Of a DNA stretch of 19,046 nt, positions 6,242 to 15,533 are shown piece after piece (position 1 is the stretch's first letter; every line of letters begins with the position of its first letter). The notes below the pieces were generated by a model. The model had not been told where the DNA came from, made no database searches, and saw only the letters and a list, made by a program, of their open reading frames with translations. The stretch lies in the NCBI GenBank assembly GCA_946885605.1, contig CAMPGR010000071.1, forward strand, positions 1-19,046. Reading direction: 5' to 3'. Both the position numbers and the translations under genes were made by a program. The stretch comes from an uncultured Pseudomonadota bacterium (GTDB lineage Bacteria; Pseudomonadota; Gammaproteobacteria; Burkholderiales; SG8-41).

Positions 6242-7723
6242 ATGCCGGGAATCAAAAATTCCATACTGGACACGGTCGGCGACACCCCGGTCGTGCGCAT
6301 CAACAACATCGCGCCGCCGGGCGTAGAGTTGTTCGCCAAGCTCGAAGCGTTCAACCCGCTCGGGTCGGTCAAAGACCGACTCGCGCTTGGCGTGATCGAG
6401 GCGGCTGAACGCGACGGCTCGCTCGAGCCGGGGCAAACGGTTATCGAAGCGACGAGCGGCAACACCGGCATCGGACTCGCCATGGTCTGCGCCCAGAAGG
6501 GTTACCCGTTGGTCGTGACGATGGCGGAGAACTTCAGCATCGAGCGGCGCAAGCTGATGCGCTTTCTCGGCGCCAAAGTGATCCTCACGCCCGCGGCCGA
6601 AAAAGGCAGCGGGATGCTGGCCAAGGCACGCGAACTTGCCGAAAAGCATGGCTGGTTCCTCTGCCACCAGTTCGAAAACGAAGCCAATGCCGACATGCAC
6701 AGCCGCACGACAGCGGAAGAGATCCTATCCGATTTCGGCGACGGCCTCGACTACTGGGTAACCGGCGTCGGCACCGGCGGCACGCTCAAGGGCGTCGCGC
6801 GCGTGCTCAAGGCGCGAAGCCCGAATACCGAGGTCGTCGTATGCGAGCCCGACAACTCGCAATTGCTCGCCAGCGCCTTCGAGCAACCCTATCTGGACGA
6901 CGGCAGCCCGGCGGCGAGCCACCCCGGTTTTCGTCCGCATCTCATGCAGGGATGGACGCCCGACTTTATTCCGAAGCTCGCCCATGACGCGATAACGGCG
7001 GGACTGATCGATCGCTTCGTGCCCATCCGCGGCGCCGACGCCCTGCAATGCGCGCGCGACCTCGCGCAGAAGGAGGGTATTTTCTGCGGCATTTCCGCAG
7101 GCGCAACGTTCGCAGGCGCACTCGAAGTGGCGAAGACCGCAAAGAAAGGGGCGAAGATTCTCGCGATGCTTCCGGACACGGGCGAACGCTACCTCTCCAC
7201 GCCGCTCTTCGAGGGCATCTCCGAGGCGATGACGAAAGCGGAACTGGAAATCGCCGCCTCGACTCCGCGCTACCGCTTCGACGTCAAAGCGGCCTCCGCA
7301 CCGAGCCCCGCCGCGCCCGAGAAAGCAAACCCTGAAGCAGTCGCCTTCGTCGAGGAGGTCATCAACGACAAGGCGCAGCCAGTGGTGATGTTCGCGCTCG
7401 AATGGTGCGAATTCTGCTGGTCGGTGCGCCGCCTCATGGCGGACGTCGGCATTCCTTACCGCTCGATCGACCTCGACTCGGTCGCCTACCAGAAGGACAA
7501 CCGCGGCGGCGACATCCGTATCGCCCTGCGCCAGAAGATCGGCTCGCCCACGATCCCGCAGATTTTCGTCGGCGGCGAATACCTCGGCGGCTGCACCGAA
7601 ACCTTCGATGCCTTCAACGCAGGGCAACTGCAAAAGCTGCTCGAGGCGAACAGCATTGCCTTCGACCGCGGCAAGAAGGTCGACGCCTACAGCTTCCTGC
7701 CGAAGTGGCTGCATCCACGATGA
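6242..7723 (+). CDS. Cysteine synthase (PLP fold type II) fused to a C-terminal glutaredoxin domain
   Basis: A 493-residue fusion. Residues 1 to about 330 are a cysteine synthase/cystathionine beta-synthase-type enzyme. GSVKDR supplies the PLP lysine K44, TSGNTG (71-76) is the substrate loop, and GVGTGGT holds the PLP phosphate. Such enzymes replace the beta substituent of activated serine with a sulfur nucleophile. A linker rich in Ala and Pro (about 350-365) leads to a glutaredoxin domain with WCEFCWS (C389 and C392), the cis-proline motif SPTIPQIFVGG and GGCTETF, all expected for a working dithiol glutaredoxin. The glutaredoxin might deliver or reduce the sulfur donor, or regulate the synthase. 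The stop codon overlaps the next start (ATGA), implying coupled translation with the decarboxylase. The start is fixed by AGGAG at 6228-6232. Exact substrates are unknown. Confidence 0.9.
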   Translation: MPGIKNSILDTVGDTPVVRINNIAPPGVELFAKLEAFNPLGSVKDRLALGVIEAAERDGSLEPGQTVIEATSGNTGIGLAMVCAQKGYPLVVTMAENFSIERRKLMRFLGAKVILTPAAEKGSGMLAKARELAEKHGWFLCHQFENEANADMHSRTTAEEILSDFGDGLDYWVTGVGTGGTLKGVARVLKARSPNTEVVVCEPDNSQLLASAFEQPYLDDGSPAASHPGFRPHLMQGWTPDFIPKLAHDAITAGLIDRFVPIRGADALQCARDLAQKEGIFCGISAGATFAGALEVAKTAKKGAKILAMLPDTGERYLSTPLFEGISEAMTKAELEIAASTPRYRFDVKAASAPSPAAPEKANPEAVAFVEEVINDKAQPVVMFALEWCEFCWSVRRLMADVGIPYRSIDLDSVAYQKDNRGGDIRIALRQKIGSPTIPQIFVGGEYLGGCTETFDAFNAGQLQKLLEANSIAFDRGKKVDAYSFLPKWLHPR

Positions 7724-9785: not shown

Positions 9786-10214
9786 ATGAAGCGGCTTTAC
9801 CGGTCACCGGTCGAGAAAAAGATCGCCGGAGTTTGCGGCGGTCTAGGGGAATATTTCGGCGTGGATCCGGTGTTCTTCCGGGTGTTGTTTATCGTGCTGG
9901 CGTTTCTCTGGGGCATCGGCATCCTCGCCTACATCGTCATGTGGATCATGGTACCGATGAAGGGCGAGGCACCCGAGGGCATCCCCCAAAAGCGGCTGCA
10001 CCTCTCGAAGACCGATCGCAAGATTGCGGGAGTGTGCGGCGGTCTCGGGGAATACTTCGACGTCGATCCGGTTCTGTTCCGCGTTATCTTCATCGTGCTC
10101 GCTTTCGTGGGCGGGCTCGGAATACTGCTCTACATCGTGCTCTGGCTGGTGATGCCGCAAGATACGACGGCGGCGCCGCCCGCGCCCGAACGCCAGCCGG
10201 CCGAAGACGTATAG
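9786..10214 (+). CDS. Protein with two tandem PspC domains
   Basis: A 142-residue inner-membrane protein made of two copies of the PspC domain, about residues 1-58 and 68-126. Each copy contains the signature KIAGVCGGLGEYF (GVDPV or DVDPV follows), then a hydrophobic helix pair ending in WIMVPM or WLVMPQ. PspC proteins sense or respond to envelope stress and, in enterics, relieve PspA inhibition of PspF. Here no pspA, pspB or pspF is present, so the role is uncertain. One domain per protein is the common form in Gram-negative bacteria, and the duplication makes it look like an internal tandem duplication. GAAGGAAGGGACG gives a strong ribosome site. The TAG stop lies within a TATAGT possible promoter for the next gene. 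Confidence 0.88.
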   Translation: MKRLYRSPVEKKIAGVCGGLGEYFGVDPVFFRVLFIVLAFLWGIGILAYIVMWIMVPMKGEAPEGIPQKRLHLSKTDRKIAGVCGGLGEYFDVDPVLFRVIFIVLAFVGGLGILLYIVLWLVMPQDTTAAPPAPERQPAEDV

Positions 10215-10215: not shown

Positions 10216-10247
10216 TTTTCAACGTATCCTTCACAGACGAGGCGACG

Positions 10248-10607
10248 ATGAAATTTCATGTCACCGGAACCAGCGGCTCGGAAAACCCTACCAAGGCCAC
10301 CCTCACGTTTGTGCACGCGAAAGGGGTCAAAGAGGCGGGCCACGATGTTTCGATAGCGCTGCTGGGCGATGCCGTTGTGCTGCTGGATCCCACTATCGCA
10401 AAGAACGTCCATGGCGTCGGATTGCCGCCCTTGGCTGAACTGATCACCTACGCCAAGGACAACGGCATTCCCGTCTATGGCTGAGGGCTCTGCTGCTCGG
10501 CCCGTGGGGTCAGCGAGGAGCACGCCAAAGCGTTGGGCGGGAAATATATCAGCCCGAAGGTTCAAGCCGAAATGTGTGCGGAAGCGGATCGGACGGTATT
10601 TCTTTAG
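10248..10607 (+). CDS. DsrE-family protein with in-frame UGA, probable selenoprotein
   Basis: A small sulfur-relay/redox protein of the DsrE/DsrF/YchN group. Read to the first stop it is 78 residues (10248-10484), which would lack the conserved C-terminal third. The frame continues after TGA (10482-10484) with GLCCSARGVSEEHAKALGG and so on to TAG at 10605-10607, giving 119 residues, the usual family length. In relatives the position of the TGA is the conserved cysteine: E. coli YchN, from memory, has VKLCKTC followed by xxGRG, against VYG-U-GLC followed by CSARG here. This gives U79-x-x-C82, a typical selenocysteine redox pair. A stem-loop follows at the expected distance. DsrE-like selenoproteins have been reported in metagenome surveys. 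The alternative is a nonsense mutation at exactly this cysteine codon (TGC/TGT to TGA). GAGG precedes the ATG. Confidence 0.75.
10491..10522 (+). promoter_or_regulatory. Predicted bacterial SECIS stem-loop
   Basis: Immediately downstream of the TGA: TGCT (10491-10494) pairs with AGCA (10519-10522), and CTCG (10496-10499) with CGAG (10514-10517). GCCC (10500-10503) pairs with GGGT (10507-10510, one G-U pair). The apical loop GTG is at 10504-10506, with a G-G mismatch and a CAG bulge. The loop begins 19 nt after the TGA and starts with G, as expected for a bacterial SECIS read by SelB. Confidence 0.6.
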
Positions 10608-10961: not shown

Positions 10962-12389
10962 ATGAGCATTTTCGACTCCGAAAGACCTCGGAAAACAAGA
11001 TTTCCAGCGATTATTTTTCTTGTTGCGATCCTTGTCGTCGGGCTTCTCGGCGGCGCCTACTACCTGGGCCCACGCCTCGAACGGGACGCGCCGCAAATCA
11101 CGGTGACGCCGGACTCGGACGTGCTTGGCCGGGCGCCCATCGCGATCGCCGTTACCGACCAGGGGGCTGGATTGAAGTCGGTTACCGTGACGCTCTCAGC
11201 CGGCGGCGCCGAGCACACGCTGGCGGCCGAACAGTACCCCGAGCCGGTGAGAGAGAAGAAATTCCCTCTCGACGTGTCGAAGCTTGCCGGGCTCAAAGAA
11301 GGGCCTGCGGTCCTGCGCGTCAGCGCGCGGGACGGTTCGCTGTGGAAATTCTTCCGCGGCAACGAGACCGTGCTCCAAAAAGAGCTCACGATCGACATCA
11401 CTCCGCCCACCATCGCACTCATCGCCGATGACCGCTACGTCACTTTTGGCGGCGTCGGGGCGATCGTCTACAAGCCTTCCCAGGATACGGTAAAGAGCGG
11501 AGTGAGGGTCGGCGATTACTTCTTCCCGGGCTTCCAAGGGCAAGTAAAGGGCCAGCCCGATCACTTTATCGCTCTTTTTGCCCATCCGTACAACGTTCCG
11601 GACGGTGCCAAACCCGTACTTGTCGCGACCGACAAAGCGGGCAATGCGAGGGAAATGCCGCTCGTCTATGAACTCAAAGGCGCAAAATACAGGAAGAGCA
11701 CCATCGCGATATCCGACAGCTTCATTCAGAACAAGGTCGCGCCCCTGTTGAACGATGTCAATGCGCGCCAGGGTTCACGGAAAGACGTCTTCATCGCCGT
11801 CAACAAACGCCTCAGAAAGGAAAACGAAGACAAGATCTCGGCGATCACGAGGAAATCGACTCCATCGCTACTCTGGAACGGTGCGTTCGTTCAGCTCAGC
11901 AACTCGAAAGTCGAAGCGAACTTCGCCGATGAGCGGACCTATACCTACAACAGTGAACCGATCGACACCGCCCATCATCTCGGCTACGACCTGTCGGTCA
12001 CCAAGCAGTATCCCGTCGAAGCGGCCAACAGCGGAACCGTCGCCTTTGTCGGCGATTTGGGCATCTACGGAAATACCGTCATCCTCGATCATGGCCTGGG
12101 GCTCTTTACGCTTTACAGCCACCTGAGTTCCATCGACGTCAAGGAGGGCGAATCGATCAAGCAGCGGCAAATCCTCGGCAAGACCGGCGAGACCGGCCTG
12201 GCCGCCGGCGATCATCTGCACTACGGAGTTTATTTGCACGGGGTCGCGGTTTTACCGGTCGAGTGGTGGGACCAGAAGTGGGTCAACGACAATATCCGCC
12301 CCAAGCTCGAGGGACATAGCGGCGAAGCGATCGCCGAATCGCAGCAGCCGAAAGCGCCGCGCAAGGCCGTGTCCAAGCGCCGGCGCTAG
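10962..12389 (+). CDS. Membrane-anchored M23 (LytM) peptidoglycan peptidase
   Basis: A 475-residue cell-envelope protein. An N-terminal anchor (FPAIIFLVAILVVGLLGG, about residues 16-33) precedes a large periplasmic region with an Ig-like fold (PQITVTPDSDVLGRAPIAI). A C-terminal M23 domain then carries the zinc motifs H339-x3-D343 (HLGYD) and H418-L-H420 (HLHYG), plus YSHLS. All zinc ligands are present, so it should be an active endopeptidase cutting peptide cross-links rather than a degenerate LytM regulator. The C-terminus is strongly basic (KAPRKAVSKRRR). I prefer the ATG at 10962, just before the anchor, over the TTG at 10866 that overlaps the promoter; neither has a strong Shine-Dalgarno. 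Its stop overlaps the remnant TauE frame's stop on the other strand. Confidence 0.88.
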   Translation: MSIFDSERPRKTRFPAIIFLVAILVVGLLGGAYYLGPRLERDAPQITVTPDSDVLGRAPIAIAVTDQGAGLKSVTVTLSAGGAEHTLAAEQYPEPVREKKFPLDVSKLAGLKEGPAVLRVSARDGSLWKFFRGNETVLQKELTIDITPPTIALIADDRYVTFGGVGAIVYKPSQDTVKSGVRVGDYFFPGFQGQVKGQPDHFIALFAHPYNVPDGAKPVLVATDKAGNAREMPLVYELKGAKYRKSTIAISDSFIQNKVAPLLNDVNARQGSRKDVFIAVNKRLRKENEDKISAITRKSTPSLLWNGAFVQLSNSKVEANFADERTYTYNSEPIDTAHHLGYDLSVTKQYPVEAANSGTVAFVGDLGIYGNTVILDHGLGLFTLYSHLSSIDVKEGESIKQRQILGKTGETGLAAGDHLHYGVYLHGVAVLPVEWWDQKWVNDNIRPKLEGHSGEAIAESQQPKAPRKAVSKRRR

Positions 12390-12635
12390 ACCTGCGCGGG
12401 TTGGGAGTACCGTCTCCACCGCACGAGGCTCGCGAGAAAACGCAGCGACGCGGCGAGCAGGAACAGCCCGAACGCCGTTTCGAGCGCCCGTCGCGAAAGG
12501 ACGTGGGCCATTCTCGCGCCATAGGACGCGGTGAGGCCATCAGTCCGACCGCGAGGCCGTAGAGGCGCGCCAGCGGATGCTTCGGCAGGTCGTCGCCCAG
12601 CCGCCACGATTCCCGGGCGCACAGAAGCTTGCCGG
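12386..12635 (-). pseudogene. Decayed TauE/SafE permease copy with internal deletion
   Basis: Two blocks match the intact permease at 14703-15533: 12423-12534 aligns with 14710-14821 (C-terminal end, ASYGA, AHVLSRRALE, LLAASLRFL). 12535-12635 aligns with about 15051-15151 (WRLGDDLPKHPLARLYGLAVGLMAS). A 229-bp deletion joins the two blocks and shifts the frame, and everything encoding the N-terminal half is absent. The left neighbour MFS gene starts right at the broken end. It is therefore non-functional. Confidence 0.85.
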
Positions 12636-12685
12636 CTCCTGATCTCTCACGGCGGGCGGGCCGGCGTTCAACCACTGGAAACGAC

Positions 12686-14702: not shown

Positions 14703-15533
14703 TTACCAGACGAGGCTCACGAGAAAGCGCAGCGATGCGGCAAGCATGAATAGCCCGAACGCGACTTCGAGCGCGCGTCGCGAAAGGACGTGGGCTATTT
14801 TCGCGCCATAGGAAGCGGTGAAGCTCGACACCGGCGCCATCAGCGCAATGCCGATCAGCGACACGAAGCCGATCGATAGCGGCGGCAGCTCGCCCTGATG
14901 CGGCAGACCGGCGACCATATAGCCGACCGTCCCGGCGAGTGCGATCGGTACCACGATGCCGGAAGAGGTCGCGACCGCCTGATGGATCGGCTTGCCATAG
15001 AGCGTGAGCACGATGGTGCACAGCGAGCCGCCGCTGACGCCGGTGAGCGAGGCCATCAGCCCGACCGCAAGGCCGTAGAGGCGTGCCAGCGGGTGCTTCG
15101 GCAGCTCGTCGCCCAGCCGCCACGACTGCTGCCCGAACAGCAGTTTGCTGGCAATGATTGCCGCGATAGCGACAAATGCGATTTTGAAAACCGGGGACGG
15201 TGCGACTGTGGCGATGCCGGAACCGATGGCGATGCCGACGAGCAGGGCCGGCGTCCACTGCCGCACGACATCCGTGAGCACCGCACCGGTCGCGCGATGC
15301 GTCAGATGCGAACGGATATTGGTCGGTATCATGATCGCAAGCGACGTGCCGATACAAAGCTGCATCAGCACCGCGTCCGGCACGCCGAAGAGGCGGAATA
15401 TCTCATAGAGCACCGGCACCACGATCACGCCACCGCCGACGCCGAACACGCCCGCAAGCAGTCCGGCCACCACGCCGCCCGCCACGATGGCGGCGGCGAG
15501 GACGAGCAATTCATTGAGTGGCACGCTCATCAT
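14703..15533 (-). CDS. TauE/SafE-family sulfite/sulfonate-type permease
   Basis: A 276-residue inner-membrane protein with about eight hydrophobic helices and the two family repeats, GVFGVGGGVIVVPVL (N-terminal half) and LTGVSGGSLCTIVL plus YGKPIHQAVATSSG (C-terminal half). TauE/SafE proteins are thought to move sulfite, sulfonates or sulfoacetate, though many members have no assigned substrate. Start: tandem ATG at 15533/15530, with no clear Shine-Dalgarno, so the start could be either. A broken paralogue lies 2.2 kb to the left (12386-12635). Two copies flank the MFS gene and the YCII gene, which suggests a past segmental duplication. Confidence 0.85.
   Translation of the reverse strand: MMSVPLNELLVLAAAIVAGGVVAGLLAGVFGVGGGVIVVPVLYEIFRLFGVPDAVLMQLCIGTSLAIMIPTNIRSHLTHRATGAVLTDVVRQWTPALLVGIAIGSGIATVAPSPVFKIAFVAIAAIIASKLLFGQQSWRLGDELPKHPLARLYGLAVGLMASLTGVSGGSLCTIVLTLYGKPIHQAVATSSGIVVPIALAGTVGYMVAGLPHQGELPPLSIGFVSLIGIALMAPVSSFTASYGAKIAHVLSRRALEVAFGLFMLAASLRFLVSLVW

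Follow-up and report, generated by a model that had tools for sequence, protein, structure and literature searches.

As far as the relevant parts of the sources go, DsrE-like selenoproteins are on record from the Sargasso Sea study of 2005 onward, which reported two genes with a UxxC motif (U, selenocysteine [Sec]) and predicted selenocysteine insertion sequence (SECIS) elements (PMC1088965). A genome study of 2006 adds one DsrE-like member, from Desulfovibrio vulgaris (PMC1794560), the 2008 Global Ocean Sampling study counts 19 sequences of “DsrE 2” and 2 of “DsrE 1” (PMC2398784), and such proteins are covered in reviews of 2022 (PMC9312934) and 2026 (PMC13188914). The passage on Betaproteobacteria in PMC5029168 concerns transfer of the Sec trait. 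Here, we analyze a gene at positions 10248 to 10607 of a 19,046-nucleotide stretch of DNA from an uncultured Pseudomonadota bacterium (contig CAMPGR010000071.1), referred to below as the window; all features of the gene lie on the forward strand. Like the published examples (e.g., WP_014524487.1), as they are described in those sources, the gene belongs to pfam02635, has Sec as the first residue of UxxC, and carries a hairpin just downstream, a likeness of family, motif, and description and not of sequence alignment.

The gene very probably encodes a 119-residue DsrE-fold selenoprotein, in which a hairpin directs Sec insertion at UGA codon 79 and a UxxC pair most likely acts in thiol redox chemistry or as a per(seleno)sulfide carrier. 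The parts of this reading that come from sequence are the frame, the correspondence of Cys and Sec, the constraint and covariation of the hairpin, the purifying selection on the tail, and the fold model.

The in-frame UGA and its conservation

The frame consists of 78 codons, a TGA at 10482 to 10484, a tail of 40 codons (10485 to 10604), and a TAG at 10605 to 10607, giving 119 codons with the TGA included. A GAGG at 10239 to 10242, 5 bases upstream of the ATG, was recognized by eye as a plausible ribosome-binding site. In the read-through translation, the tetrad U-G-L-C, which runs from Sec 79 to Cys82 (codon 10491 to 10493), is followed by C-S-A-R-G-V. The Pfam model DsrE (PF02635) matches residues 1 to 117 of the 119 (43.4 bits against a cutoff of 22.7; E = 4.6e-11), and because the match spans this range, the part behind the TGA belongs to the DsrE family. 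This bears out the preliminary description of this DNA, which proposed a 119-codon DsrE gene split by an in-frame TGA and continued by the C terminus of the family. The Pfam scan of the read-through protein showed no SirA match, and the NCBIfam model SaoD/DsrE (NF040913) scored 12.7 bits and did not reach its cutoff of 152. On the whole window, Rfam gave nothing at the gathering score, and ARAGORN detected neither tRNA nor transfer-messenger RNA.

It had also been suggested that standard gene calling would miss such a gene, and the databases agree. The read-through sequence was searched against about 5.8 billion proteins, and of 55 candidates scored, 43 were matches (alignment A1); 41 of these, down to 44% identity, end exactly at window residue 78, a count made on protein records whose DNA was unseen. 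Alignment A2 comprised the window and P0001 to P0037 only. Relatives were found neither by a genome-contig scan with the single sequence nor by a viral-contig scan; the alignment-based genome-contig scan returned 13 loci (L001 to L013, the last a partial match). All five of L001 to L005 carry TGA at the window's codon 79 with the tail intact, and their records are titled Betaproteobacteria (two), Proteobacteria, Armatimonadetes, and Actinobacteria.

Genomes were then covered as sets: 369 from the class of G001, 74 from its family, 399 from the class of G005, 291 from the phylum of G004, and 41 from the order of G003, where G001 to G003 are the genomes of the nearest loci, L001 to L003. Rows were listed at E ≤ 1e-3 in some searches and at E ≤ 1e-12 in others, and part of them scored just 11 or 15 first-look candidates from each genome, for a total of 86 match rows. 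An internal stop is present in 22 of the rows listed, representing 21 distinct genes (G001 was listed twice), and it is each time a single TGA, never TAA or TAG. With the window, 22 genes thus have TGA at the same codon as their sole internal stop, and by this measure the conservation of TGA at this codon is far beyond chance. The tail is kept to its end in 20 of the 22; the contig of L087 ends two codons after the TGA, and this gene does not enter any count of tails, codons, or hairpins. Misreading of TGC or TGT, raised earlier as a possible cause, is excluded in practice by independent records that carry TGA and by the database proteins that end at the same residue.

The TGA stands where homologues have a cysteine. 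A search with a profile built from nine UGA genes (alignment A4) drew 5672 proteins at E ≤ 1e-10, and in all 120 full-length ones listed, the UGA column is Cys, the next residue is Gly, and Cys occurs again three positions on; the motif is C-G-A-C in 119 of these 120, the other having V for A. Cys82, which may act as the resolving residue, is invariant in A4 and in the same 120 proteins. Replacement of a conserved Cys to give UxxC, as first proposed, is therefore well founded, and the stricter expectation that column 79 holds only Cys or Sec stands for the listed homologues and fails in a separate, more distant subgroup (L006 to L012), where the column is Ser and CxxC is missing. From its sequences, this Ser-type subgroup is probably without thiol chemistry. 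Its members (L006 to L012 and most of L084 to L100) mostly retain the A-R-G segment despite the lack of CxxC.

A tree of 41 rows, in which 10 of the 120 listed full-length homologues were included, joins the Sec pair L059/L111 and ten Cys proteins in one group (support 100/99) with no resolved branching order inside it; a switch between Cys and Sec therefore lies within this group, whichever its direction. The window forms a supported group with L001, L002, and L003 (99/94). The Sec label requires four changes on the best tree and two when supported branches are considered, and this count may be inflated by five truncated proteins of unseen DNA that were scored as not Sec.

Selection on the tail was assessed by the ratio of nonsynonymous to synonymous substitution rates (dN/dS; Nei-Gojobori) in five pairs, with codons 80 to 119 taken as downstream and codons 1 to 78 as upstream for the window and L001. 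This pair gave 0.14 downstream and 0.09 upstream of the TGA, L057/L058 gave 0.10 and 0.05, L077/L078 gave 0.31 and 0.23, and L002/L003 gave 0.09 and 0.03. The downstream value is at most 0.31 in four of the five pairs, and the relaxed selection that would have spoken against a translated tail was not seen in these four. Judged from its ratio, the tail is under purifying selection between the window and L001.

These data bear on the simplest alternative, in which the TGA is a nonsense mutation and a true stop in a decaying gene. It would agree with the truncated gene models, with a dN/dS that rises somewhat behind the TGA in all five pairs, and with Sec machinery that is seen in relatives of the window's genome only. 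It leaves unexplained that 21 other genes have a TGA in this position, among them A4 members that are 38 to 82% identical to the window gene and have conserved tails, and it does not account for the lack of TAA and TAG in relatives, the low downstream dN/dS against L001, and the synonymous constraint on the loop codons described below. We consider such decay very improbable; the preliminary description had likewise argued against a random nonsense mutation.

SECIS-like hairpin and selenocysteine machinery

A bacterial SECIS-like hairpin is predicted at 10495 to 10514, with 8 pairs, one bulged C, and the apical loop GUG at 10504 to 10506. The bacterial SECIS model, as outlined in the 2026 review, places the loop 16 to 37 nucleotides (nt) from the UGA and specifies a loop of 3 to 9 nt, an upper stem of 4 to 16 bp, and a G in the first two loop positions (PMC13188914). 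The window hairpin agrees with it throughout: the loop lies 19 nt from the UGA, reads GUG with the G first, and is carried by 8 bp with one bulge. The 21-nt stretch 10495 to 10515 folds at −10.7 kcal/mol (z = −2.49), the stretch having been chosen after the fold had been seen. With stretches of 35 and 48 nt, the GUG loop and its closing pairs persist (z = −0.90 and −1.08), and the lower stem re-pairs (CUCG to CGAG, over a bulge of 3 nt).

The codons GCC CGT GGG (Ala-Arg-Gly) at 10500 to 10508 supply the loop together with the pairs that close it. These three codons occur in 19 of 21 UGA genes and in none of 20 Ser-type genes (Fisher P = 9e-10), and CGT occurs in 20 of 21 versus 4 of 20 (P = 7e-7), with P values that ignore relatedness. 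The two exceptions, L002 and L003, code for Gly-Arg-Gly, and two Ser-type genes have Val or Pro for Ala, which makes GCC impossible there; among the Ala-coding genes, the triplet is found in 19 of 19 UGA genes versus 0 of 18 Ser-type genes. The Ser-type set comprises 20 genes found by one pattern in 25 loci, of which L087 is a UGA gene. As background, CGT accounts for 7.9% of the codons for Arg in 15 genes of the window and for 11.7% in the longest of the flanking frames. As far as codon usage can tell, the hairpin loop is constrained at synonymous sites across relatives. Fewer synonymous changes in the hairpin may in part explain the higher dN/dS downstream of the TGA.

Covariation was evaluated for a 7-pair helix (5′ arm, 10496 to 10502; 3′ arm, 10508 to 10514) in alignment A5, which holds 20 genes without L083, a gene that is counted in the codon tallies. 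The helix is paired in 72.9% of cells, against at most 50.7% when slid by 1 to 3 positions, and its covariation score of 0.289 exceeds the shuffled mean of 0.162, with none of 500 shuffles as high. Columns 18 and 30 pair as C-G in nine genes and as G-C in seven. Altogether, the helix surpasses the controls in three of five covariation measures.

A Sec codon also requires the decoding apparatus, and SelA, SelB, and SelD are all above their family cutoffs in G001, G002, and G003, together with a tRNA-Sec (77.7, 74.1, and 66.5 bits, respectively). In G001 (contig C95) and G002 (contig C513), the genes for SelA, SelB, and tRNA-Sec are found together on a single contig within 5 kb. For G004 and G005, neither SelB nor SelA reaches the cutoff; G005 has a tRNA-Sec (77.5 bits) and SelD, and G004 has a partial SelD. 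The best SelD match in each of G001 to G005 (L034 to L038) carries one in-frame TGA; in-frame TGA codons within SelD genes are known. Since the tRNA-Sec family cross-matches other tRNAs near its cutoff, also in control genomes, only scores above 60 bits were counted, and the scores show a gap between 52.7 and 63.3 bits. By this count, tRNA-Sec is present in 17 and SelA in 17 of the 21 genomes with a UGA gene, and at least one of them in 18. In comparison genomes, picked from the listed ones and not at random, the corresponding figures are 10 and 13 of 20 with a stop-free homologue, and 8 and 8 of 13 without a match (class of G005).

The preliminary description had named a genome devoid of this machinery as a refuting result; in G001, G002, and G003, whose loci are nearest to the window gene, the machinery is present. 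Together with the Cys/Sec correspondence, the hairpin, and the selection on the tail, this supports the initial proposal that the UGA is decoded as Sec, as far as comparison of sequences allows.

Predicted fold, chemistry, and gene neighborhood

AlphaFold2, run on A4 with the UGA entered as Cys, gave a model with a mean predicted local distance difference test score of 96.5 and a predicted template modeling (TM) score of 0.88. In this model, residue 79 ends the strand 76 to 79 and is followed by helix 80 to 85. The best Foldseek matches are Escherichia coli YchN (1jx7), the putative DsrE 3pnx, 3mc3, and DsrEFH (2hy5), with TusBCD (2d1p) in ranks 9 and 10; nine of the top ten are chains of YchN, of the DsrE family, or of TusBCD, and the remaining protein is of unknown function. 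In a PDB sequence search at E ≤ 0.01, 3mc3 was the sole match.

A second alternative accepts the conservation of the UGA and takes it for a genuine stop that yields a functional 78-residue protein, or for a codon read by a near-cognate tRNA or under a changed code. The truncated database entries, predicted as short complete proteins, would be as expected for such a stop. In the model, however, an end at residue 78 deletes the last strand (115 to 118), three helices, and Cys82. A changed code is at odds with 5 of the 16 other window genes, which end in TGA with no homologous continuation visible by eye, so that TGA is not reassigned throughout, and plain read-through leaves the SECIS-like codon constraint unexplained. 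This explanation is hardly credible on such evidence.

If the UGA is instead decoded as Sec, as preferred here, the hairpin at 10495 to 10514 would recruit SelB with Sec-tRNA-Sec, and UGA 79 would consequently be decoded as Sec. The residue would open U-G-L-C at the end of the domain's third strand, in the place of the first Cys of CGxC in the Cys relatives, and the UxxC pair would most likely cycle between the selenol/thiol and selenenylsulfide states. Both the actual insertion and the chemistry are what we infer from these features. With UxxC located at the cysteine site, a role in thiol/selenol redox or as a per(seleno)sulfide carrier is suggested, and the protein may thus act as a thiol oxidoreductase or as such a carrier. 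The Sec could also be a ligand for a soft metal(loid) or for selenium, in a selenoprotein without a redox or sulfur-carrier function. According to the 2026 review, the Sec of SaoB, SaoC, and UXX-star proteins may coordinate a metal or bind other, unknown substrates (PMC13188914), and no neighbor or partner connects the window gene with sulfur transfer. The low score of the SaoD/DsrE model speaks against a ligand role, which we regard as unlikely.

The gene lies between a PspC gene (9786 to 10214) and an M23 peptidase gene (10965 to 12389). The former, directly upstream on the forward strand, encodes a single small protein with a tandem pair of PspC domains. Conserved neighbors were sought by BLASTP of open frames of at least 90 codons in the 21 loci, for pairs that include the window, L001 to L005, or L057 to L059. 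Four matches were obtained besides the DsrE gene and its antisense frames, namely, L002-window (a methyltransferase), L005-window (MFS), L002-L004, and L003-L073; no neighbor occurs at the same position relative to the gene in these 21 loci, a weak negative, as in many of them the flanks extend no more than about 1.5 kb on each side.

Two further loci of the window were recorded. On the reverse strand at 12408 to 12636, adjoining the MFS gene, the TauE/SafE gene (14703 to 15533) has a second, decayed copy that survives in two pieces; they correspond to residues 239 to 276 and 128 to 162 in different frames, with 83 to 85% identity in protein and 85 to 87% in DNA. At 6242 to 7723 (forward strand), a pyridoxal phosphate-dependent enzyme combines a cysteine-synthase-like PALP domain with a C-terminal glutaredoxin domain; a match at E ≤ 1e-100 was found in 1 of the 74 genomes of the family of G001 (G407), and it covers residues 7 to 343 at 72% identity, with the glutaredoxin part not included.

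Several results weigh against the selenoprotein reading. The 21 UGA genes are not independent, eight of them being one clade, and L081 diverges from the family about 16 codons into its tail, as if frameshifted. Downstream dN/dS exceeds the upstream value in all five pairs, and in L076/L079 it reaches 1.2, on five changes, against 0.26 upstream. For the hairpin, RNAalifold finds a weak consensus (4 pairs, −1.47 kcal/mol), the 48-nt folds of nine UGA genes range in z from 0.04 to −2.18, and in A5 the pairs with a change on both sides and the further pair types are no better than in shuffles. The host's own Sec machinery is presumed from G001 to G003, and G001 to G005 are metagenome assemblies by title, without a completeness figure. 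Among the genomes with a UGA gene, 4 of 21 are without tRNA-Sec above 60 bits and 4 of 21 are without SelA, both missing in G004, G424, and G749. The association of the UGA gene with the machinery in the genomes compared is positive and not significant (tRNA-Sec, 17/21 versus 18/33, P = 0.08; selA, 17/21 versus 21/33, P = 0.23). In the 21 loci, no partner or neighbor gene points to a specific substrate or pathway, since the neighbors are not at the same place in other loci.

Relation to known DsrE proteins and selenoproteins

E. coli YchN, DsrEFH, and TusBCD share the fold of the window protein (Foldseek TM score by query, 0.67 to 0.77 to 1jx7, 2hy5, and 2d1p) at 14 to 19% identity. The window gene differs from the multi-subunit sulfur relays DsrEFH and TusBCD in that no partner gene was found. 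YedF, as characterized in the part of the source that treats it, has a DsrE domain with CGxC and is linked to selenium genes (PMC5322559); the window protein differs in having no SirA match.

The Cys DsrE proteins of the subfamily (e.g., P0044 and P0051) have C-G-A-C at the same columns and share G10, P14, T15, G40, G58, and D114. They differ by Cys in place of Sec and, in most of those printed, by an N-terminal extension of about 30 residues. The listed ones (P0045 to P0163) are mostly about 149 amino acids long, and in five long ones of the six printed, the extra residues resemble an export signal, whereas the Sec forms begin directly at the domain. What Sec contributes to the active site of a DsrE protein could naturally be studied in a subgroup that contains Sec and Cys forms side by side. 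A tentative idea is that the conserved Ala-Arg-Gly peptide of the family behind CxxC can be written as a SECIS loop (GCC CGU GGG), so that a Cys-to-UGA change and synonymous tuning would suffice to make a selenoprotein. As the tree does not settle whether Sec or Cys came first in the group that holds both, we take this to be possible and rather less likely than not. If true, Sec and Cys forms would interchange easily, and a large, mostly misannotated set of DsrE selenoproteins would exist across several phyla.

A full-text literature search found no title or abstract opening on this branch, which is no proof of absence, and no paper joining SaoD with a selenoprotein. The DsrE-like UxxC selenoprotein is as a kind already known since 2005; what is new is a branch of it whose members come from Betaproteobacteria and from records bearing the titles Actinobacteria and Armatimonadetes. 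Gene callers end selenoproteins too early, and a conserved redox-type protein is here recorded as a 78-residue fragment; corrected models would enlarge the Sec proteomes known for Betaproteobacteria and for the lineages under these two titles. The published examples, as presented in the sources cited at the outset, are few and come from marine samples or D. vulgaris, whereas the branch of the window gene comprises Betaproteobacteria together with groundwater and sediment records of other phyla.
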